From a virus, in IMG/VR virus record IMGVR_UViG_3300027779_000011, positions 62,001 to 126,000 of that record: a DNA stretch of 64,000 nucleotides. One strand, written 5' to 3'. Positions 1,618 through 61,140 of this stretch are shown in pieces (position 1 is the first letter of the stretch; each line of letters starts with the position of its first letter). The position numbers and the translations under genes were made by a program. The notes under the pieces were generated by a model. That model saw nothing but the letters and a program-made list of their open reading frames with translations, was not told where the DNA came from and did not search any database.

Positions 1618-1691
1618 TAAGTTATCAAATCTATGATAGATTGATGGCGGAATATTTAAACCAATTATGGTTAAATGAAAGGAGAAATACT

Positions 1692-3578
1692 GTGAGTAAG
1701 ATTATAGGCATTGACCTTGGTACTACAAACTCTGCTATTGCGATAATGGAGTCAAGTAGTCCAAGAGTTTTGGAGAATGAAGAGGGTGGCAGAACAACTC
1801 CTTCTGTTGTATGTTATACAAAGAATGGAGAAAGGCTTGTGGGCGATATAGCTAGGCGACAGGCTGTTGTTAACCCAGATAGAACCGTATACTCTGTAAA
1901 GAGGTTTATGGGCAGGAAGTTCTCAGATGTAAAAGAGGAGTCTAAGAAAGTCCCGTATGGCATCACATCTGGAAAGGACGACTCCTGTAAGATAAAGATT
2001 GGAAGTGATACATTTTCGCCGGAAGAAATTAGTGCTCAAATACTTTTAAAGATAAAGAGGGCAGCAGAAAAATATACTGGTGCTAAAGTAAATGAAGCGG
2101 TAATAACCGTTCCTGCATATTTCAATGATGCGCAAAGGCAAGCAACTAAGGATGCTGGAAAGATTGCGGGACTTGAGGTTAGAAGAATTATAAATGAACC
2201 CACTGCTGCCGCATTAGCATATGGGCTAGATAAGTCTGAGGACCAAAAGGTTGTTGTGTTTGATCTTGGCGGCGGAACATTTGATGTGTCCGTACTAGAT
2301 ATATCCGATGGAGTCGTAGAGGTGCTGTCAACAAACGGCGATACCCACCTTGGTGGTGATGACATTGACCAAATTCTTATAGACTGGATGATGGATTCTT
2401 TCAAAGAAGATTCAAAGATGGATGTTTCATCTGATAATATCGTAATTCAAAGGCTAAAGGAAGCCGCAGAGAAGGCTAAGATCGAGCTTTCAAGTGCTCA
2501 GTCAACTGATATAACTCTGCCGTTTTTAACAGCAGATAGCACAGGGCCGAAACATTTAAACGCCACCCTGTCAAGATCGAAATTTGAGCAGATGATCGAA
2601 AGCTTTGTCCAAAGGGTTATGATTCCAGCGGATAAAGCCGTAAAGGATTCAGGCGTATCGCTATCCGAAATAGATGAAGTCATCCTTGTTGGTGGGTCAA
2701 CAAGGATTCCGATTGTAAAAGAGGCAGTCGAGAAATTTTTTGGAAAGACTCCTAATTCGTCTGTAAATCCAGATGAGGTAGTAGCCCTAGGAGCCGCCGT
2801 TCAAGCTGGCGTGTTCTCTGGAGATGTTACAGATATTTTGCTTCTTGACGTTACGCCCCTTTCTCTTGGCATTGAGACTATGGGTGGTGTTATGACTAAT
2901 TTAATTTCCAGAAACACCACAATACCTTGCACGAAGAGTCAGGTATTCTCAACCGCTGAATCGAATCAGACAGCGGTTGATATAAATGTCTTTCAAGGAG
3001 AAAGGAAGCTAGCTGTAGAGAACATGTCACTGGGGTCATTCAGGCTTGATGGGGTGCCTCCAGCGCCAAGGGGCGTTCCTCAGATCGAGGTTTCGTTTGA
3101 TATAGACGCAAATGGAATAGTTAGTGTTTATGCGAAAGATCAGGCTACTAAAAAGGAGCAGTCTATAACGGTAAGTGGGGTTGGTACGCTTTCGGATGAT
3201 GAAGTTGAAAAAATGGTAAAAGAGGCTAAAGATAACGAGGATGAGGATAGAGCCAAACTTGAGCTGATAGAAAAAAGGAATCAGCTAGATTCTTTAGTTT
3301 ATCAATCTACAAAGTTTGTTGATGAGAACAGAGAGTCTCTCTCTAGCGATCTGATAGATAATCTAGAGTCCTCTGTTGAGGATGCCAGAGAGTCGCTGGA
3401 TGCAGATAATATTAACGATTTGGATAGATGTATTCAAAGTGTTCAATCTGCCCTTCATGAATTATCAAGTCAAATGCATGAAGAAGTTTCGGATACGGAA
3501 GGCGTGGAGCCTAATGATGCTTCTAACGCTACCGATGATAACGTTGTTGATGTTGACTTCAAAGATGTTGTTGAATAG
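1692..3578 (+). CDS. dnaK: Hsp70 chaperone DnaK
   Basis: This is a full-length Hsp70 of 628 residues, an ATP-driven chaperone that binds and releases unfolded polypeptides. The GTG start follows AAAGGAGAAA; an in-frame ATG at 1641 would add 17 unlikely residues. The N-terminal ATPase has GIDLGTTNS at residues 6-14, Lys70 in the expected position, the [10 protein letters not shown] segment and FDLGGGTFD. The substrate domain has the [10 protein letters not shown] linker region, followed by a helical lid and an acidic tail ending in DVDFKDVVE, as in bacterial DnaK. No DnaJ or GrpE is seen in the window, so it probably uses host co-chaperones (inference). It is followed by an Hsp20 gene, and its own sigma70 promoter lies just upstream. 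Complete dnaK genes are uncommon in phages. Confidence 0.97.
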
Positions 3579-8962: not shown

Positions 8963-9232
8963 ATGTTAGATAAATTAAAAGAGTTATTGCGAAGATGGAA
9001 AGTTCAGGTAGTTGTTGTTGGCGGGGCTTTGGTTGTCGCTACGGCATATGGAACCTGTACCTATGAGCCTTTTGCTCAAGAGCAAGAGGGAGAAGGGTCT
9101 GCCGAAGAAGCTTCTATGGAAGCAACTGAAGCAGCTGAAGCAGCTGAAACAACTGAAGCAGCTGAAGCAGCTGAAGCAGCTGAAACAACTGAAGCAACTG
9201 AAGCAACTGAAACAACTGAAGCAACAGAGTAA
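8963..9232 (+). CDS. Small membrane-anchored protein with Glu-Ala-Thr repeat tail
   Basis: The 89-residue protein has a basic N-terminus, then one hydrophobic segment at about residues 14-30. A short linker leads to a C-terminal tail of twelve three-residue repeats of the form E-[A/T]-[A/T]. The hydrophobic segment could be a signal-anchor; the Cys after it does not make a standard lipobox. The acidic repeat tail is probably disordered and exposed. AAAGGAG precedes the ATG. It lies 19 bases before groEL, so the two are co-expressed. Function is unknown; tethering or charge shielding are guesses. Confidence 0.7.
   Translation: MLDKLKELLRRWKVQVVVVGGALVVATAYGTCTYEPFAQEQEGEGSAEEASMEATEAAEAAETTEAAEAAEAAETTEATEATETTEATE
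9119..9226 (+). repeat. Twelve tandem 9-base repeats (GAA RCA RCW)
   Basis: In-frame 9-base units encode EAT, EAA or ETT. A partial higher-order period of four units (three A-type, then ETT) is visible. Such arrays change length by slippage without breaking the frame. Confidence 0.9.
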
Positions 9233-9251: not shown

Positions 9252-10877
9252 ATGTCTTTTAAAAATGTAGACCTAGGAAGAGATGCTAGGGAGAAAATGA
9301 AAAAGGGTCTTGACATTCTTGCAAATGCGGTAAAGGTCACTCTTGGGCCGCGTGGCAGACACGTTGCAATACAGAGAGAGTATGGCCCTCCGCAAATTAC
9401 AAAAGATGGTGTTACTGTTGCCAGATCTATAAACCTATCTAATAGTGTTGAGGATATGGGTGCTCAGCTTATAAAGTCTGTTGCCGCAACAACAAATGCC
9501 GTTGCTGGCGACGGCACTACAACTGCAACTGTCTTGGCTCAATATATTTATAATGATGGAGCCAAGATGGTTGAAGCTGGCCATAACCCTGTTTTGATAA
9601 AAAGGGGAATCGACATTGCCGTAAAGAATGTTTCGAATTCGCTAAAAGAACTCAGTGTTCAGCTTACAGATGGCGATAGCATAAAAAGTGTTGCCTCAAT
9701 ATCTGCAAATAATGATATGGAGCTAGGTAGCTTAATTGCAGATGCGGTAATGAATGTTGGAAACGATGGAATGATATCAGTAGAAGACTCTGCCGGAACA
9801 GATACCTCGGTATCATACACCGATGGGCTAAAGATAGATAGGGGGTATTTGTCTCCAATGTTTATAACCAATCCAGAGAAGCTTTTGGTCGAGATGGAAA
9901 ACCCATTAATTCTTTGCTTTGATGGTAATATGGGCTTTCATAACTTCAATAAAGAGTATCTTCCGTTATTCAAAAAAGTTTCAGAATCAGGGAGAAAGGT
10001 TCTTGTTATAGCCAAAGAGTTTGATCATGAGGTTATGTCGACTTTCATTTTGAATAATTCAAAGGGCTCTATATCTTCATGCCTAATTCGGGCTCCTGGG
10101 TTTGGTGACTTCAGAAGGGATATGCTTGGAGATATAGCGGCAGCATGTGGTGGAAAGTTGTTCACAGATGACTCTGGAGTTGGACTTTCGGAATCAGAGG
10201 TAGATGATTTGGGTACGGCAAGGAGAATCGTAGTCTCTAGATTCGAGGCAACTATTGTTGACGGTGGAGGTTCTATGGATGATATAGAACGAAGAGTATC
10301 TGCATTAAAAGCCCAGCTTGATTCGGATATGTTAGAAGGCTTTGAAATAGCATCTCTGAAGAGTAGGATTTCAAAACTTTCTGGTGGAGTTGCAGTAATA
10401 AAAGTTGGTGGATCAACTGAGAGTGAAATGAAAGAGAGAAAAGATAGGGTCGAGGATGCTATAAACGCTGTTAAGGCTGCTATCGAAGAAGGCGTTGTCC
10501 CAGGAGGGGGTGCTTCTTTGATTCACTGTGTTAATTCGGTCGAGTTATTTGAGTCATCAAAGGAGTACATGAGTTTGCTACCGGAAGAGAAGATTGGGGT
10601 GGGCATAGTCAAGAACTCTCTTTCTGCTCCATTTAGACAGATAATGATAAACTCCGGAATGGAAAATCAGTATATGAGAATTATGGATAAGATACTTCTG
10701 AAGAAAGGGTTTTCTGGGTATAACGCTTTGTCAAATACTTTTTCAAATAATATGTTAAAAAGCGGAGTCATAGACCCCACAAAGGTAGTTAGAACTGCAA
10801 TAGTAAATGCGGCATCTGCAAGTGGAATTATGCTAACCACAGAAGTTGCAATATCATCAGCAGATGAACAAAAATAA
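9252..10877 (+). CDS. groEL: Chaperonin GroEL, first copy
   Basis: A complete 541-residue chaperonin subunit, numbered almost as in E. coli. The ATPase residues are present: Asp52 in [19 protein letters not shown] with Asp87, and the [20 protein letters not shown] segment that holds the third catalytic Asp. The apical domain keeps GYLSP and APGFG, but the second Tyr of the substrate/GroES site is Met (SPMF). The tail ends ADEQK with no Gly-Gly-Met repeats. In the family it forms rings that fold proteins in an ATP cycle. No groES is seen beside it or elsewhere in the window. GGAGGG precedes the ATG. Confidence 0.96.
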   Translation: MSFKNVDLGRDAREKMKKGLDILANAVKVTLGPRGRHVAIQREYGPPQITKDGVTVARSINLSNSVEDMGAQLIKSVAATTNAVAGDGTTTATVLAQYIYNDGAKMVEAGHNPVLIKRGIDIAVKNVSNSLKELSVQLTDGDSIKSVASISANNDMELGSLIADAVMNVGNDGMISVEDSAGTDTSVSYTDGLKIDRGYLSPMFITNPEKLLVEMENPLILCFDGNMGFHNFNKEYLPLFKKVSESGRKVLVIAKEFDHEVMSTFILNNSKGSISSCLIRAPGFGDFRRDMLGDIAAACGGKLFTDDSGVGLSESEVDDLGTARRIVVSRFEATIVDGGGSMDDIERRVSALKAQLDSDMLEGFEIASLKSRISKLSGGVAVIKVGGSTESEMKERKDRVEDAINAVKAAIEEGVVPGGGASLIHCVNSVELFESSKEYMSLLPEEKIGVGIVKNSLSAPFRQIMINSGMENQYMRIMDKILLKKGFSGYNALSNTFSNNMLKSGVIDPTKVVRTAIVNAASASGIMLTTEVAISSADEQK

Positions 10878-12417: not shown

Positions 12418-12837
12418 ATGATAAAGCTATCTGCATTTGAATCAGCAAGAATAACAGACCCTTCCAGTGGAAAAGAGGTTAAGGTTTCCACCACAGTCAG
12501 GATGCAGTATAGGTGGCTATATAGAAATTATGAGCCTGAGTTTCAAAGCATGAGAAATAATATTCTTAATGAGATAATAGGAAAAGATTATTCTGGTAGC
12601 TCCGGTGATGGCAATATGGTGCATAGGTTTAAGCTTGGAAGCTCTAGCATTGAATCAAAGGAAAGGGAGATTGCTGAGATCAGAAAGTTTTCTCCATCAT
12701 CAGAAAGAGCTAGGGCTTTTAATTTCTTTATAGCAGTAGAGCGAAGTGATGGAATTTATATATTAGCCGTAAAGCAAAGCTGGAAGTCTCCTAAGTATAC
12801 CAAAACTTATGGTTATACAAAGAAAAGCAGAACTTAA
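12418..12837 (+). CDS. Hypothetical protein at head of structural cluster
   Basis: This 139-residue basic protein contains an Arg/Tyr/Trp-rich patch near residues 28-40 and a C-terminal segment rich in Lys, Ser and Tyr. No recognised domain is visible. It is the first gene after a terminator, just ahead of three probable virion proteins, so a head or tail role is possible from context only. No strong ribosome site is seen; AGGGA lies about seven bases ahead of the ATG. Confidence 0.6.
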   Translation: MIKLSAFESARITDPSSGKEVKVSTTVRMQYRWLYRNYEPEFQSMRNNILNEIIGKDYSGSSGDGNMVHRFKLGSSSIESKEREIAEIRKFSPSSERARAFNFFIAVERSDGIYILAVKQSWKSPKYTKTYGYTKKSRT

Positions 12838-12883: not shown

Positions 12884-13546
12884 ATGAATAAAAAGACTGC
12901 ACAATTAAAGCCGCCAAACTGGGACCCCGATATTCTGCCAAAGTTAAAGCAGATAAACTATGGTTCTCAAGAGGGTGAGATAAAGAGAATTTTAAACGAT
13001 CCAAGTAAAATTATATTTGACGCAACCTCTCCATCGGATAATCCCAATGCTTCTGCTTGGGTCACAACCGATGATTTGAAAGATGGAAAAATTGATGCGG
13101 TTCATATAAACGCAACAAAGATTCCAAAACCGGGGGATGGCTTTGAACAAATGGCCAATCAAATAATCGCATCAATTTCAGCATTGTTATCTCATGAAGT
13201 CGGACACATTGAAGACTTCAGAGAGGAGCTTTATGAATCAGGACAAGACCCGTTTCCGGGTGGAGAGGCTGTAGCTGAAGAAGCACAAAGACAACAGGAG
13301 CAAAGAGCAATGTTAGCATTAGAACAAATGGCGTCAGCAAAGAGTACTTTGGTGAAGCTTTCAAATGATCTAGATGGTTCTGGTAATGGAAAGATTGCAG
13401 ATAGTATAGATAAATTATTATATGTTATCTCAAAAGAGGAAGTCAGTATAAATAAGACGGCCATACAAAAAGATGATGACGTGTTGGCAGAAGAAGTGTT
13501 TATGTTTAATGACTCATTTTATAAGAAACCATTCGGAAGGATGTGA
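12884..13546 (+). CDS. Zincin-like metalloprotease with shared virion motif
   Basis: This 220-residue protein starts at the ATG after GAGGTT. HEVGH at residues 104-108 matches the HExxH zinc-protease signature. An acidic stretch (GGEAVAEEA) some 20 residues later could give the third ligand. At about residues 155-185 it carries the LVKLSNDLDGSG...IADSIDKLL motif that also appears in the next two proteins. Together with its location this suggests a virion or prohead maturation protease (inference). Phage prohead proteases are normally serine enzymes, so a zincin here would be unusual. It could instead act on the host cell wall or on host proteins. Confidence 0.72.
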   Translation: MNKKTAQLKPPNWDPDILPKLKQINYGSQEGEIKRILNDPSKIIFDATSPSDNPNASAWVTTDDLKDGKIDAVHINATKIPKPGDGFEQMANQIIASISALLSHEVGHIEDFREELYESGQDPFPGGEAVAEEAQRQQEQRAMLALEQMASAKSTLVKLSNDLDGSGNGKIADSIDKLLYVISKEEVSINKTAIQKDDDVLAEEVFMFNDSFYKKPFGRM

Positions 13547-13568
13547 TGATTGGCAAATATTCAAATAA

Positions 13569-15863
13569 ATGGGTGATATAAAAACCATGAAGAAGAAAAC
13601 CGTAGAACAAGAGAATGAGCTTGGAGATACTCCGACTGATGCGATAGCTGGTATGCACATGCCAGATCCCGAAGGTTCGTGGAGAGGCTCCGATCCGGGA
13701 GAGAATAGCTATACTTATGATAAGAAGCAGATTGCATACCATGAAAGACGCCTGACCGGGAGAAAAAGAAAGGAAAATGGTTTATCAAAAGGGGCAAGAG
13801 GTCTTTTGGATATGCAAACGGAACAGGGAAAGTCCGGTGAATATTTTGAAGAGGATGAGACCGGGTTATTTGGCAATGAATCTCCTGAAGATTTACCTAC
13901 TAATAAACCAGATAGAAATATAAGATATGAATCATCTACCGGCAGCTCAGACGTAGATCTGTCTGATTTTTCGTTCTTGGGGTTTGGAAAAGAATCAAAA
14001 AGGAATTATGAAATGAACAATGAATTAATCAAGCTATCAAACTTATTAGACGAGATCGGAAGCGTTAATGCTGCGGATAGAATAGATCTTATGATTATAA
14101 AGGAAGCGGTAACTACGCCTTCTGGGTGGAGTTCACGTCCTAGCTCTAGTGCCTCTACGTCTCAGCAGAATCTTCATCGCGCTTGTACTGCATATTATAC
14201 AGCAATAGATACTATGGAGTCTCAGAATTATTACAGTGGAGGCGACGAAGGTGCTGCCGAGGATGTTATAAATGCAGTATGGGCAAGATATAATGCCTTT
14301 GACGGCTGGGGTGATAACGATGATGCACTTCCAAATGCACTTATTAGCGCAGCTCGTTCGGCTGAGCCAAGTCTTACATCAAGACCTGAGGGTTATTCTT
14401 CATGGTTTGAAGCTGTTGTAAAAGAAGGGGACGTTAATTTTTCCAACGGAAACTCAGCCTTCTACGGTAATTCTGACGGATTTGCAATAGACGCCAAGAA
14501 TTTTTGGGGGAAAATGAAGAGTGCAATCAAAAAAAACAGGGCAGCCGAAACAGCAGCCGAAACAGCAGCGGCAACAGGAGGAACCGCTCTCCAAGATGAT
14601 ATGGACCCTGAAGATAAGATGGGAGATGCTCCCTTTTTCTACCTTCTTACTGAAGCACAAAAGACCACTGCTGAACAGCCCGAGGCAGATTTCTTAAGAC
14701 TAGAATGGGGAGCATCTGAAACACCCCCTCAGTGGAGAATACAGTTTAGAAAAATGCGTGATCTTTCTGTGTGGCTAGAGGCCAATTCAGAAAAGAGAAG
14801 CCTTGTAACGGAAGAGTGGATTGAAGAATTATCAGAACTTGGGAATGGGGCATACAAGGATGGGTTTCAATGGACTACGGGAGCTGTGACAGAGTATGCC
14901 AACAAAGGAAAGATTCCGCATCCAGGGAAGGGATACGCTGCTTATTACGACTCTTGGGAAGGGTGGACTGACTCATGGACTGTAATGTATGACCTTCTGC
15001 GTAACCAAGAAACAGTAAAGGCCTCTGGCGAATTTGCACAACAACAAGCAGAAGGAAGATCGGGCGGCGGCGGCGGTGGTGGTGGCAGTAGAGCCGTTGC
15101 TTCTATCGTTGATTTATCAGGTGGAGTAATAACTGATTCTGATACTGGTAACAAATTCAGAACATGGGTCTATTCAGATGCTGCGAGGGCTAGGTGGGCC
15201 TCTAGTAATAACTTTGATAGTTCTCACACAGTGTTTAATTCCAGAGCTATGAGGAGTGCTTGGGCGACTTATGGTAATCAGTATAAACAATATTTGCAAG
15301 TCGCTGGACCGGACGAGTTACTTGCTGGCTCCGGAACCGGAAGTGTGGCAAGGCGAGAATCTGTGGATGATTTACTTGGGGAGACAGCTCCACAAGCACC
15401 TCCAGTTGCAGCTCCACAAGCACCTCCAATTGCATCTCCACAAGCACCTCCAGTTGCAGCGACTCAGCCAGAAGCAGGGTGGACTATCGAGAATGTTGGT
15501 TCCGCAGTAGATGAGTTATATAGAGGGGTTCGGATTGGCAAAAACAGTGAAAGGAAAGTAAGAAGAACGACTGCTAGAGCACTAAGAGATTTGGGCCGTG
15601 GTTCTACCCAGGAGATTCTAAACTACTTGTCTGGAAGAACACCTCCATCATCTGCTACGATGAGATACAGCGAAGTTTATAACGCTCTAATGGACCTAAA
15701 GGAACAGCTATCAGGAGGCCGCAAATCAAGGGCGGCTAGGATTGATAGGATTAATGCCTTGTCGAAAACCAGTGACGATGTCATAGATACTTATAAGAAA
15801 GCCGCAAACAACCGAAGAAGAAGGGTGTCTGAGGATAGAAAAAAGCTTTACGATAGTATCTGA
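13569..15863 (+). CDS. Probable virion structural protein with low-complexity linkers
   Basis: A 764-residue protein. Residues 1-148 are charged and polar. Residues 149-180 hold the shared motif (MNNELIKLSN ... AADRIDLMI) followed by IIKEA, which resembles the L/I-x-E cleavage sites of T4-type prohead proteases. Later come a Ser/Thr stretch, an ETAAETAAA run (about 320), a polyglycine run (about 500) and three copies of APQAPPVA (about 607-630). The C-terminus is basic and helical. Linkers of this kind are common in phage baseplate or head-decoration proteins; the assignment is by style and context. A second start at residue 149 (14013) has its own ribosome site. Confidence 0.7.
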   Translation: MGDIKTMKKKTVEQENELGDTPTDAIAGMHMPDPEGSWRGSDPGENSYTYDKKQIAYHERRLTGRKRKENGLSKGARGLLDMQTEQGKSGEYFEEDETGLFGNESPEDLPTNKPDRNIRYESSTGSSDVDLSDFSFLGFGKESKRNYEMNNELIKLSNLLDEIGSVNAADRIDLMIIKEAVTTPSGWSSRPSSSASTSQQNLHRACTAYYTAIDTMESQNYYSGGDEGAAEDVINAVWARYNAFDGWGDNDDALPNALISAARSAEPSLTSRPEGYSSWFEAVVKEGDVNFSNGNSAFYGNSDGFAIDAKNFWGKMKSAIKKNRAAETAAETAAATGGTALQDDMDPEDKMGDAPFFYLLTEAQKTTAEQPEADFLRLEWGASETPPQWRIQFRKMRDLSVWLEANSEKRSLVTEEWIEELSELGNGAYKDGFQWTTGAVTEYANKGKIPHPGKGYAAYYDSWEGWTDSWTVMYDLLRNQETVKASGEFAQQQAEGRSGGGGGGGGSRAVASIVDLSGGVITDSDTGNKFRTWVYSDAARARWASSNNFDSSHTVFNSRAMRSAWATYGNQYKQYLQVAGPDELLAGSGTGSVARRESVDDLLGETAPQAPPVAAPQAPPIASPQAPPVAATQPEAGWTIENVGSAVDELYRGVRIGKNSERKVRRTTARALRDLGRGSTQEILNYLSGRTPPSSATMRYSEVYNALMDLKEQLSGGRKSRAARIDRINALSKTSDDVIDTYKKAANNRRRRVSEDRKKLYDSI
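15387..15458 (+). repeat. Three tandem 24-base repeats (Pro-Ala-Gln linker)
   Basis: Three in-frame units of 24 bases each encode APQAPPVA with one or two substitutions. They form a probable flexible or extended linker in the structural protein. Confidence 0.9.
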
Positions 15864-15907
15864 TGCTTATATTTAATAACTTGAATTACCAAAGAGGAAT
15901 CTAAAAA

Positions 15908-17473
15908 ATGCAAAACGAATTAATCAAACTTTCAAAGACCTTAAGCGGTCTTGGCCATAAGAAGCACTCCAGTATAGTCAGAGGCCTTGGAGTACCAAGC
16001 GTCAGCATTATGCTTTCAAAGTTTGCAGGAGCTCCAAACCCAGGACTTATAAAGCTCATCAATGGAAATGCTGCTAATAGCAAAAGTCAGGTAGGAATTA
16101 ATCTCAGCTATAAAGGCAATGACGATCTTGGAGAGTGGGCAACGGGTTCGGATGAAATATCCATTGCAACCCAGGAAGTGCTGACAGACTTTATAGATAT
16201 GGTAAAAGGGATAAATGCTGATACCCCAGAAAAAGCCTATGAAACACGCGCAAAGATAAAGGCTATCACGGTAAGTGTTTATACTGATACCGCAGGTAAT
16301 GATGCTAATAACGAAGCTCGTAGTCAAAGGCGAGCAGATATAATTGTTGCAGCCCTAAGGCAAGATGTTCCTGGGGTAACCTTCACAGGGAAGGGTATGG
16401 GAGAGGATGCGGAAAAGAATAAGAGATACCTTAACTTCCAAATTACCGAAATAGAAGCTAGGCAAGCTGTAATGGATTCCCATGTAGTGGCCCTTAATGA
16501 TGGTGGAACAGCGTACTGGTTTCTAAGACAAGGTAACTACTTTGTTGTAGATGTTACCAAGCCAGATGCCCATAGAGCCGCTACCAAAGCCGAATCTGCA
16601 ATCCAGAAAGACAGCACTGGTAAAGGGACCGGTGATGCTGGAAATGCTCTTGTTTATTTTGGAGCAGAGGCTGCTATTGCAGCTGGGGCAATTAGCCCGG
16701 TAGAAAATCCAGCCGGAACAATTTATATGGTAGATAGCGCGAAGCTTACGGGTGCCGCAGCCATGATGAGCTTAGAGGATACAATTCAGTCACCAACAAC
16801 TCCATCTGAAAGAGCCACTAAGCTTGGTGCGTCTGCCGAGGCAGGACAGGTTGCTAGGACCGAAAGTGAAGCTTGGCCAGCAGAGGTCGTAAAAGATTCA
16901 ATAAGAAGACTCCTTGAGATCAGAGAACCATTGGAGATAGACCCAGATGGAGGTGGCTCACAGCCCGCTGCTCAAGCCTTAGCTGCACATCGCGTTAGGC
17001 GCAATATGAGGAGAATGTTCAAGACTAATATGGAAAAAAACCCTGACGGGTTTGACCGTACTGTTCAGAAATTGGCTCAGGAAATGACAGCTAGTCCAAA
17101 CTTTGTATATAATCCAGATGAAGGTGCCGCAGGATCTAACATAGGAATGGTGTTTATGGCGGCGATGCAATCAGAGAGTGTGGCCCAGTCTACTGGTGGC
17201 TCTGCTTCGTCAAGAGCAAAGAACTCAAGAAAGGGTAGGCGAAGAATGGAGAAGGCTAAAGCCAGAGCACGAAAAAGGTCTGATAGAGAGAGATATGATA
17301 ACCCGCTAATTCCAAACTTTATGGAGCGTGGCCAGAAGTTTAACGAGAGAGGCGAGAGAAAGGCTTCCTCAAGCACAATAGAAAGCCTTCATAAGATTTC
17401 AATGAAAAAGTCATCTGCAAAGTCTGCCGCTAAGAAAAGAAGAGAAAGAATTAAAAAAGAAAATATGCGATAA
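15908..17473 (+). CDS. Structural-type protein with OmpA-like domain
   Basis: This 521-residue protein starts MQNELIKLSK, the shared motif placed at the very N-terminus. Residues ~75-190 look like an OmpA/MotB C-terminal domain: TVSVYTDTAGNDANNE is followed by SQRRADIIVAAL, then a Gly-Glu-rich segment and NKRYLNFQI. That fold binds peptidoglycan in the periplasm. The middle is Ala-rich. The C-terminal 100 residues are strongly basic (many RR, KK and SR pairs) and could contact DNA or a membrane. AGAGGA precedes the ATG. A tail or virion protein that docks on the Gram-negative wall is the best guess. A terminator follows. Confidence 0.72.
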   Translation: MQNELIKLSKTLSGLGHKKHSSIVRGLGVPSVSIMLSKFAGAPNPGLIKLINGNAANSKSQVGINLSYKGNDDLGEWATGSDEISIATQEVLTDFIDMVKGINADTPEKAYETRAKIKAITVSVYTDTAGNDANNEARSQRRADIIVAALRQDVPGVTFTGKGMGEDAEKNKRYLNFQITEIEARQAVMDSHVVALNDGGTAYWFLRQGNYFVVDVTKPDAHRAATKAESAIQKDSTGKGTGDAGNALVYFGAEAAIAAGAISPVENPAGTIYMVDSAKLTGAAAMMSLEDTIQSPTTPSERATKLGASAEAGQVARTESEAWPAEVVKDSIRRLLEIREPLEIDPDGGGSQPAAQALAAHRVRRNMRRMFKTNMEKNPDGFDRTVQKLAQEMTASPNFVYNPDEGAAGSNIGMVFMAAMQSESVAQSTGGSASSRAKNSRKGRRRMEKAKARARKRSDRERYDNPLIPNFMERGQKFNERGERKASSSTIESLHKISMKKSSAKSAAKKRRERIKKENMR

Positions 17474-18142: not shown

Positions 18143-19159
18143 GTGATTGACATAGCAGATATTGTAGTTGGATTGGCGTGGGGTGACGAAGCAAAGGGAA
18201 AGATAACAAGTCATCTTTCATCAAAGAAGTTCATATCTGGAAAACCTTATTATGATTTTGTAATTAGGTGGGCAGGGGGTAATAACGCAGGGCATACAGT
18301 TTACGTTAACGGAAACAAGTTCAAGACGCACCTTATACCATCTGGAATTTTTTATGGTGTTCAATCAGTTATTGGACCCAATTGTGTTTTGAACATTAAT
18401 TCGTTCAAGGATGAGTTAAGTTATCTTAGTGACAATGGATTTGACACAACGCTGGTAAAGGTAGCTCCAAACTGTCACATTGTAAGTGAAGAGCATATAC
18501 AATTCGATAAGGACAACTTAGCTGCAAAGTTAGGCACAACATCTAGAGGTATTGCCCCATGTTATTCGGATAAGGCGGCAAGGATCGGGATGCTAGCTAA
18601 GGACGTTCTTAGTCCCAATATGATTTGGAACGAGAAGCTTCATGGTAATATTCTATGTGAAGGAGCACAGGGAGTTTGGTTAGACATAAACCATGGAAAT
18701 TATCCATATGTTACTTCGAGCGAAACCCTCCCTTATGCCGCTTGCAGTATAGGGTTTCCGCCACAAAAAATAAACAATATATATGGGGCAGCAAAAATTT
18801 ATGATACCAGGAGCGGCGAAGATCCTAAGTTCCCAAACAGTTTGTTAGATGACCCGGTTTTGTCAAGATTGGCTGAGATTGGTAGTGAGTATGGAGTCAC
18901 TACTGGAAGAAGAAGAAAGGTCAATTGGTTAAATTTAGACATGTTGGTTAGATCAATTAATATTTCAGGGGCAACACATATTATTATTAGCAAGTGCGAT
19001 ATAATTAAAGAGCTAGATATCTATAAGCTTTTTTATAATAACGAATATCTTTCATTTCATTCTATGGGAGATATGCAGAGTTTTATAACTGAGAAAATAG
19101 AAGGCTTATGCGCCCTGGTAAGGCAGATTAGATTTTCATATTCGCCAGAGGGATTATAA
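18143..19159 (+). CDS. Adenylosuccinate synthetase, short PurA/PurZ-type
   Basis: A 338-residue member of the PurA superfamily, which joins aspartate to a purine nucleotide using GTP or ATP. Motifs: WGDEAKGK at residues 13-20, GGNNAGHTV with His51, LGTTSRGIAPCYSDKAAR (IMP-site region), GAQGVWLDINHG, TTGRRRKVNWL and the nucleotide-base motif SKCD. It is about 90 residues shorter than bacterial PurA, like archaeal PurA and phage PurZ. The catalytic Asp (Asp15 here, Asp13 in E. coli) is present. As I recall, characterised PurZ enzymes that make 2-aminoadenine precursors have Ser there. So a PurA-like IMP-to-adenylosuccinate reaction is favoured, with PurZ-like activity on dGMP not excluded. The GTG start follows AAGAGGT. 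Confidence 0.9.
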   Translation: MIDIADIVVGLAWGDEAKGKITSHLSSKKFISGKPYYDFVIRWAGGNNAGHTVYVNGNKFKTHLIPSGIFYGVQSVIGPNCVLNINSFKDELSYLSDNGFDTTLVKVAPNCHIVSEEHIQFDKDNLAAKLGTTSRGIAPCYSDKAARIGMLAKDVLSPNMIWNEKLHGNILCEGAQGVWLDINHGNYPYVTSSETLPYAACSIGFPPQKINNIYGAAKIYDTRSGEDPKFPNSLLDDPVLSRLAEIGSEYGVTTGRRRKVNWLNLDMLVRSINISGATHIIISKCDIIKELDIYKLFYNNEYLSFHSMGDMQSFITEKIEGLCALVRQIRFSYSPEGL

Positions 19160-22482: not shown

Positions 22483-23589
22483 ATGTATATTGAAGAAAAA
22501 GAACATTTGGCTTTTGATGACGTTTTGTTAAGACCTTTATACTCCGAAGTCAGGTCTAGGTCCATTCCAGATACTGCAACTAATATTGCAGGAATTGAAA
22601 TGTCTATACCGATTATATCCTCTCCGATGGATACGGTTACTGAGTATGAAATGGCAATTGCGATTGCAGAGAGTGGCGGAATGGGCATAATACATAGGTT
22701 TATGACACCATCAAAGCAGCTTCTAAATCTGAGGAAGGTTGCTAGAGCGTCATCTTCTATGTATAATACAGGCTATCCGGTTGTTCCCGCTGTTGGAGTT
22801 GGTAAGAGTGAGAGGGAGCGGTTTATTCAGATCTTAAATGGGATTAATCCATACGCCATTAGTGCGGTTGCAATTGATATTGCAAATGGCCATTCGGTTC
22901 TGATGAAGGAGATGATCGACTTTGTTAACCAGAAAACAGGTGGCGACATTCCAATTATAGCTGGGAATGTAGCGACGGGAGATGGTTTTGCCTACCTTGC
23001 TGAGTCTGGAGCAAGTGCAATAAGGGTGGGTATTGGCGGCGGTTCTATTTGTAAGACAAGAATAATGACTGGAGCCGGTATGCCAACATTCCAATCTGTT
23101 GTTGATTGCTCTGAAGCAAAGAACTCTTCGAACGAGTATGATAGTGTTTCGATAATTGCAGATGGCGGAATAAGGTATCCGGCTGATTTAGTCAAGAGTA
23201 TCGCAGCAGGGGCAGATGCTGTGATGGTAGGGAGAGTTCTTTCATCAACAGATGAGACCCCAGGTGAATATTTTGATGCGAATGGAAATATAGTAGATTA
23301 TAGTAGCGGCATAGAAAAATATAAGAAATACAGGGGAATGGCCTCATCTGAGGTTCAGGATGATAAGAGGGGTGGGCTAAAGTCAGGAACCTGTGCAGAG
23401 GGGGTGTCTACCCTTATAAAGAGTAGGGGGTCTGCTTCTGATGTGATGGATGAATTCTTTGCAGGATTGAGATCTGGTATGACTTATGTTAATGCTCTTG
23501 ACTTGAAACAACTTAGAGAAAATGCAATTTTTATAAAAATAACAAAGGCTGGCGCTGATGAGTCACATGCCTTTGGAACAAAGAAATAG
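22483..23589 (+). CDS. IMP dehydrogenase/GMP reductase family enzyme, GMPR-like
   Basis: A 368-residue TIM-barrel enzyme without CBS domains. The catalytic loop GGGSICKTR puts the nucleophile at Cys190 and Thr at 192; the phosphate loop has ADGGIRYP (Asp227) and MVGRVL. The segment after YRGMASS reads RGGLKSG...EGVST. It lacks the Arg-Tyr (DRY-type) pair of IMP dehydrogenase and resembles the GG...EG pattern of GMP reductase. GMP reductase turns GMP to IMP with NADPH. Paired with the adenylosuccinate synthetase at 18143, this would send guanine nucleotides to adenine nucleotides. IMP dehydrogenase activity is the alternative. Confidence 0.9.
   Translation: MYIEEKEHLAFDDVLLRPLYSEVRSRSIPDTATNIAGIEMSIPIISSPMDTVTEYEMAIAIAESGGMGIIHRFMTPSKQLLNLRKVARASSSMYNTGYPVVPAVGVGKSERERFIQILNGINPYAISAVAIDIANGHSVLMKEMIDFVNQKTGGDIPIIAGNVATGDGFAYLAESGASAIRVGIGGGSICKTRIMTGAGMPTFQSVVDCSEAKNSSNEYDSVSIIADGGIRYPADLVKSIAAGADAVMVGRVLSSTDETPGEYFDANGNIVDYSSGIEKYKKYRGMASSEVQDDKRGGLKSGTCAEGVSTLIKSRGSASDVMDEFFAGLRSGMTYVNALDLKQLRENAIFIKITKAGADESHAFGTKK

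Positions 23590-59490: not shown

Positions 59491-61140
<1,650 letters not shown>

Follow-up and report, generated by a model that had tools for sequence, protein, structure and literature searches.

Three adjacent genes in an uncultured phage encode a zincin-type metallopeptidase, a 764-aa protein and an OmpA-like protein, and a first-pass annotation had claimed that all three share a short two-helix module. This raises the question of why otherwise dissimilar proteins should carry a common peptide. The window analysed here, the whole stretch of DNA under study (64 kb), corresponds to positions 62001-126000 of an IMG/VR record with a total length of 158,716 bases. Coordinates refer to the window unless given as genome coordinates.

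A shared helical module in three adjacent genes

All three claimed copies were found in the sequence. The first, LVKLSNDLDGSGNGKIADSIDKLL (13340..13435, + strand; E 2.3e-14 with a profile built from eight copies), sits behind the peptidase domain of the zincin (12884..13546, +; HEVGHIEDF...FPGGEAVAE), which has a conserved N-terminus, MxKKxA. Neither Pfam nor PHROG gave a match to the zincin, and a fold search was uninformative. The second copy, MNNELIKLSNLLDEIGSVNAADRIDLMIIKEA (14013..14108, +; E 3.7e-16), occupies residues 149-180 of the 764-aa protein (13569..15863, +) and ends in I-K-E-A (14097..14108, +), a K-x-A motif and putative maturation cleavage site. This protein was also without a Pfam or PHROG match, its direct relatives were not found in IMG/VR by peptide patterns, and it weakly resembles two other carriers of the module. 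The third copy, MQNELIKLSKTLSGLG (15908..15973, +; E 8.4e-5), forms the N-terminus of the OmpA-like protein, which is of the peptidoglycan-binding type (15908..17473, +) and whose orthologues keep a diverged form of the module, TELLKLAKALxKSGY. The second helix, described previously as AD-x-ID, can be recognized in the zincin and in the 764-aa protein, whereas in the OmpA-like protein it has diverged and the match is confined to helix one and the turn. A K-x-A end is lacking in two of the window's three copies: the zincin copy has none, and in the OmpA-like protein the motif is found only further downstream, where inspection indicated K38-F-A40 (MLSKFAG; 16019..16027, +) as a weak candidate cleavage site 3' of the degenerate hairpin.

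Among the predicted genes of the window, the sequence pattern given in the first-pass annotation had exactly three matches, and 2000 residue shuffles produced none. A profile seeded with three strong copies of the source genome matched non-seed copies at genome positions 134061 (E 2.9e-12), 30621 (4.8e-11) and 128023 (1e-7), and it also found the zincin copy (E 7.5e-5). Chance resemblance was rejected on the basis of the shuffles and these non-seed matches.

Fold, spread and conservation of the module

The module comprises approximately 32 residues with the consensus MIKELIKLANHLDxKGLxKEADYLDxIIKKA, in which the L, D, G, A and D positions are conserved at 85-96 %. A helical hairpin is predicted by AlphaFold, which modelled copy 2 as two helices (residues 2-15 and 18-34) with a mean pLDDT of 84.6. 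No Pfam match to the module was obtained, a structure search with a 38-residue hairpin query was uninformative and returned nothing usable, and a literature search of limited coverage found no description of such a tag.

Profile searching identified nine genes of the source genome carrying the module at E<1e-3. A profile built from eight copies of this genome matched 13 of 15 records (the source genome and 14 capsid-related records), with up to 14 copies elsewhere, and a wider profile, A2, detected up to 21 copies in a single record, G017 (223 kb). Iterated searching of fetched loci yielded 141 modules in 129 ORFs, mostly at the N-terminus. A profile check of the genome and its relatives had been proposed at the outset; these further copies, and the conservation described below, are the reverse of the outcome that had been named as speaking against a shared module. 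When LDxxGLxKEADxLD was searched as a strict degenerate DNA pattern, 54 stretches matched in IMG/VR, often several per contig, but approximately 257 Gb of bacterial and archaeal genomes gave no match, and a host-derived domain was rejected on this ground. Profile A2 found no module in five more distant related phages (phage G, Tunturi_5, Rctr197k, LR745208 and Motura), and tblastn of 32-aa module queries against cultured phages gave chance matches only.

As a bait-free test of conservation, viral contigs were searched with zincin domains stripped of the module. The module follows directly after the peptidase domain in each of the seven zincin loci found, though most of their contigs had already surfaced through other searches. 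HE[VY][GA]H and FPGGE..AE are conserved in seven zincin sequences, and orthologues with the module at the same place display 34-44 % identity. Gene order is similar across these loci, comprising a chaperonin, a 139-aa gene, the zincin and then further genes, and several loci have a gene with a diverged N-terminal module at the OmpA-like position. The syntenic 139-aa gene upstream of the zincin (12418..12837, +) starts MIKLSAFESA in the window. In its orthologues in loci L207-L213, the N-terminus is a very short peptide that closes with K-x-A (FIKKA-GLE), which recalls a short targeting peptide with no hairpin.

The K-x-A motif and its occurrence in head proteins

Mapping of motifs onto the module showed that [KR]-x-A ends 64 of the 92 N-terminal copies, at model positions 27-29 or 28-30, against a control rate of 2.06 % in comparable windows of the same proteins. 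The motif ends 12/31 internal and 2/30 C-terminal copies (N-terminal versus C-terminal, Fisher 7.5e-10). Both registers were present together in one case, and two alternative registers that almost never co-occur suggest a linear motif. Proteins in which no module was detected showed a motif peak at N-terminal residues 20-40. The first-pass annotation had likened the end of the module in the 764-aa protein to T4-type prohead cleavage sites. This did not hold up: [LI]-x-E was found at 4/92 N-terminal module ends versus a background of 6.0 %, and T4-type cleavage was rejected as the motif was enriched neither at module ends nor in head proteins.

The head gene cluster lies outside the window, where PHROG matches identified a terminase (genome 135475), a portal (137257), a head-maturation protease carrying a long fused tail (144944-148321; phrog_18299, E 1.7e-13) and the major capsid protein (154314). 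The closest annotated relative of the capsid protein is gp27 of Bacillus phage G (47 %), and IMG/VR contains 352 capsid-related stretches of this lineage. By sequence, the protease qualifies as a head protease of the S77/S78/herpes fold, and its candidate catalytic residues H130 and S181 are invariant in 23/23 orthologues. The protease lineage is present in 10 of 19 module contigs, many of which are fragments. Neither capsid protein nor protease was found in G017, perhaps because of the fragmentary nature of that record.

Within the source genome, h-[KR]-x-A (where h is hydrophobic) is enriched in head proteins (z 4.4) but shows no enrichment in the remaining proteins (z 0.8). Head proteins had been inspected before the motif was selected, and a scan of all h-X-x-Y motifs was meant as a correction for this. 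Across 23 orthologues of the protease fusion, no such motif is more enriched in the tails than h-[KR]-x-A, with 223 occurrences versus 52 expected, but the orthologues are related and the counts not independent, so z values are inflated. These tail motifs occur at conserved places, for example LLKxA-Q and SVKxA-SDLGG, and K-x-A enrichment in more distant relatives is no more than about twofold (z 2-3). Near the N-terminus of the capsid protein, IV[KR]YA[SA] is invariant in 60/60 proteins of the lineage. A second capsid-protein site (RKA) was dropped, having been lost in a relative (RRV).

Between the protease and capsid genes lies a candidate scaffold or core protein gene (genome 148312-148878), with no match to a known scaffold family. 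The C-terminus of this family consists of two hairpins with KEA between them. A profile made from N-terminal cargo modules alone matched the 148312 family (1.7e-4) and the 150147 family (2.3e-6), with reversed controls at 3.9 or above. The sequence link between cargo and core hairpins is moderate, the source genome's own copies being linked via intermediates only, and suggests that cargo and core have one assembly element in common. The scaffolds of P22 and herpesviruses carry coat-binding helices at the C-terminus, and at herpesvirus assemblin sites alanine precedes the cut. The candidate core family likewise places a helical element at the extreme C-terminus, and the putative cut here also involves alanine. 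No sequence or fold link was found between the hairpin and the P22 or herpesvirus scaffold helices, the structure search with the 38-residue query being uninformative.

A putative address tag for the phage head

Few of the 110 carriers have known domains, and those identified are LysM, PG_binding_1, Hydrolase_2 (cell-wall hydrolase), GDSL lipase, a superoxide dismutase C-domain, PilZ, ArdC-N and OmpA. As a set, the carriers resemble sets of ejected or internal proteins. Taken with the motif data, we consider it probable that the hairpin is a head address tag, which loads proteins into the prohead core and is cut off at K-x-A by the head protease, some of the cargo then being ejected. Tagged proteins would join the core during assembly, where the tag probably packs against like hairpins at the C-terminus of a core or scaffold protein whose gene neighbours that of the protease. 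After assembly, the protease with its scaffold-like tail would cut at or next to the alanine of [hydrophobic]-K-x-A, a motif located at the ends of N-terminal tags as well as in the scaffold tail and close to the start of the major capsid protein. Cargo would thereby be released inside the head, and part of it (peptidoglycan-active proteins, the lipase, anti-restriction-type proteins and other effectors) would be ejected together with the DNA into the host. The module had been proposed as a sorting or docking tag for head or tail assembly or for the maturation protease; head assembly linked to that protease is the best-supported of these roles, whereas tail assembly found no support.

Other explanations account for parts of these data. 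The hairpin might be a general protein-protein docking domain for parts of the virion, such as the tail, baseplate or an outer complex, and be kept by the mature protein, with K-x-A being just its usual helix end. The frequent lack of K-x-A in internal and C-terminal copies, and cell-wall-binding cargo domains typical of tail parts, are in keeping with this. However, two registers that exclude one another in all but a single case are more readily explained by a linear motif than by a helix cap, K-x-A is also over-represented in the tails of the protease fusions and never varies near the N-terminus of the capsid protein, and copies adjoin protease and capsid genes, not clearly tail genes, all of which makes a docking domain unlikely. 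We regard as improbable a tag for some other intracellular site (a phage nucleus-like compartment, membrane or host factor) with no role in the virion. The presence among the carriers of small function-unassigned genes in tandem arrays away from the head genes points that way, but genes of internal head proteins may lie outside the head cluster, and such targeting would explain neither the C-terminal hairpins of conserved head-cluster proteins nor the presence of the head-protease motif at the end of the tag. It is very improbable that the module is a functionless selfish or mobile coding repeat spread by recombination, despite its many copies in unrelated proteins and at varied positions within them, given the purifying conservation of its L, D, G, A and D positions at the protein level, its fixed place in diverged zincin orthologues and a relation to the cleavage motif that is fixed by position class.

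Precedent for a head address tag exists in T4, where a capsid targeting sequence (CTS) brings IPI, IPII, IPIII and Alt to the core and the prohead protease gp21 frees them (PMC9026906). The T4 CTS, some 10 residues long, is removed by cleavage after L/I-x-E, the protease responsible also cuts scaffold and capsid protein, and internal head proteins are ejected into the host (PMC9026906). Like the CTS, the hairpin is a shared terminal peptide on unrelated proteins, ended by a defined motif at which a protease would cut and which recurs in the protease-fusion tails. In contrast to the CTS, it is a 32-residue hairpin ending in K-x-A, unrelated in sequence and without an L/I-x-E end, which also occurs internally and C-terminally and is carried by as many as about 21 genes or more. 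Since the test for the T4 motif was negative, we do not assign the hairpin to the T4 CTS family. In phiKZ and SPN3US, the available portions of two reports describe many head proteins losing N-terminal propeptides and a protease, gp175/gp245, that cuts itself (PMC10052503, PMC5694885). N-terminal propeptides on internal head (ejection) proteins (PMC10052503) are a likeness to the present system. Differences, as far as the same portions go, are cuts after A-x-E or S-x-E, propeptides often longer than 100 residues and no description of a shared hairpin tag (PMC10052503, PMC5694885). By the precedent of T4 and SPN3US, the hairpin is most likely a head-loading propeptide. For polyvalent proteins of phages and plasmids, some with zincin (MPTase) and ArdC-N domains, packaging and delivery along with DNA have been proposed (PMC5512222). 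Zincin and ArdC-N domains are also found among the carriers, but polyvalent proteins are large multidomain chains (PMC5512222), whereas the carriers are mostly single small proteins with one common tag.

The chances are evenly balanced that these elements form a modular loading system, with one transferable hairpin, recognition by a core hairpin, a K-x-A protease and many interchangeable effectors per genome. If the address-tag reading is correct, the tag may mark proteins that these phages bring into the host, and it would provide a sequence rule listing internal, probably injected proteins, most of which match no known family, so that the injected proteins of a widespread uncultured lineage would be readable directly from sequence. 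The head protease would then cut after alanine, whereas those of T4, phiKZ, 201phi2-1 and SPN3US are described, in the portions of the literature available, as glutamate cutters. Foreign proteins could then also be addressed to phage capsids in the laboratory by means of the hairpin, which would serve as a ready-made tag.

Several individual carriers and neighbouring genes displayed further features. A module-like N-terminus precedes an ArdC-N anti-restriction domain in L159:7353-8687 (-; Pfam E 4.5e-5), a candidate pre-packaged anti-restriction protein, whilst in L100:1711-2418 (-) an N-terminal hairpin is followed by the C-terminal motif of iron/manganese superoxide dismutases (WEHAYYTD). 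The carriers L114:1609-2469, L114:466-1593 (-), L115:1617-2567 (-) and L105:472-1596 (-) have a common second peptide at the C-terminus, DR[IL]xK[MLA]AxLMxGEF ... [VI]RR, the last part being terminal; it too contains K-x-A and is perhaps another removable tag. Within the window, a phage-encoded Hsp70 and two different GroEL-type chaperonins were located at 1641-3578, 9252-10877 and 59491-61140, and relatives also have a GroEL upstream of the zincin cluster. Adenylosuccinate-synthetase-like and IMP-dehydrogenase-like genes were recognized near the cluster by sequence inspection (18143-19159 and 22483-23589), and a small ORF at 8963-9232 consists mostly of EAAEAAETTEATE repeats.
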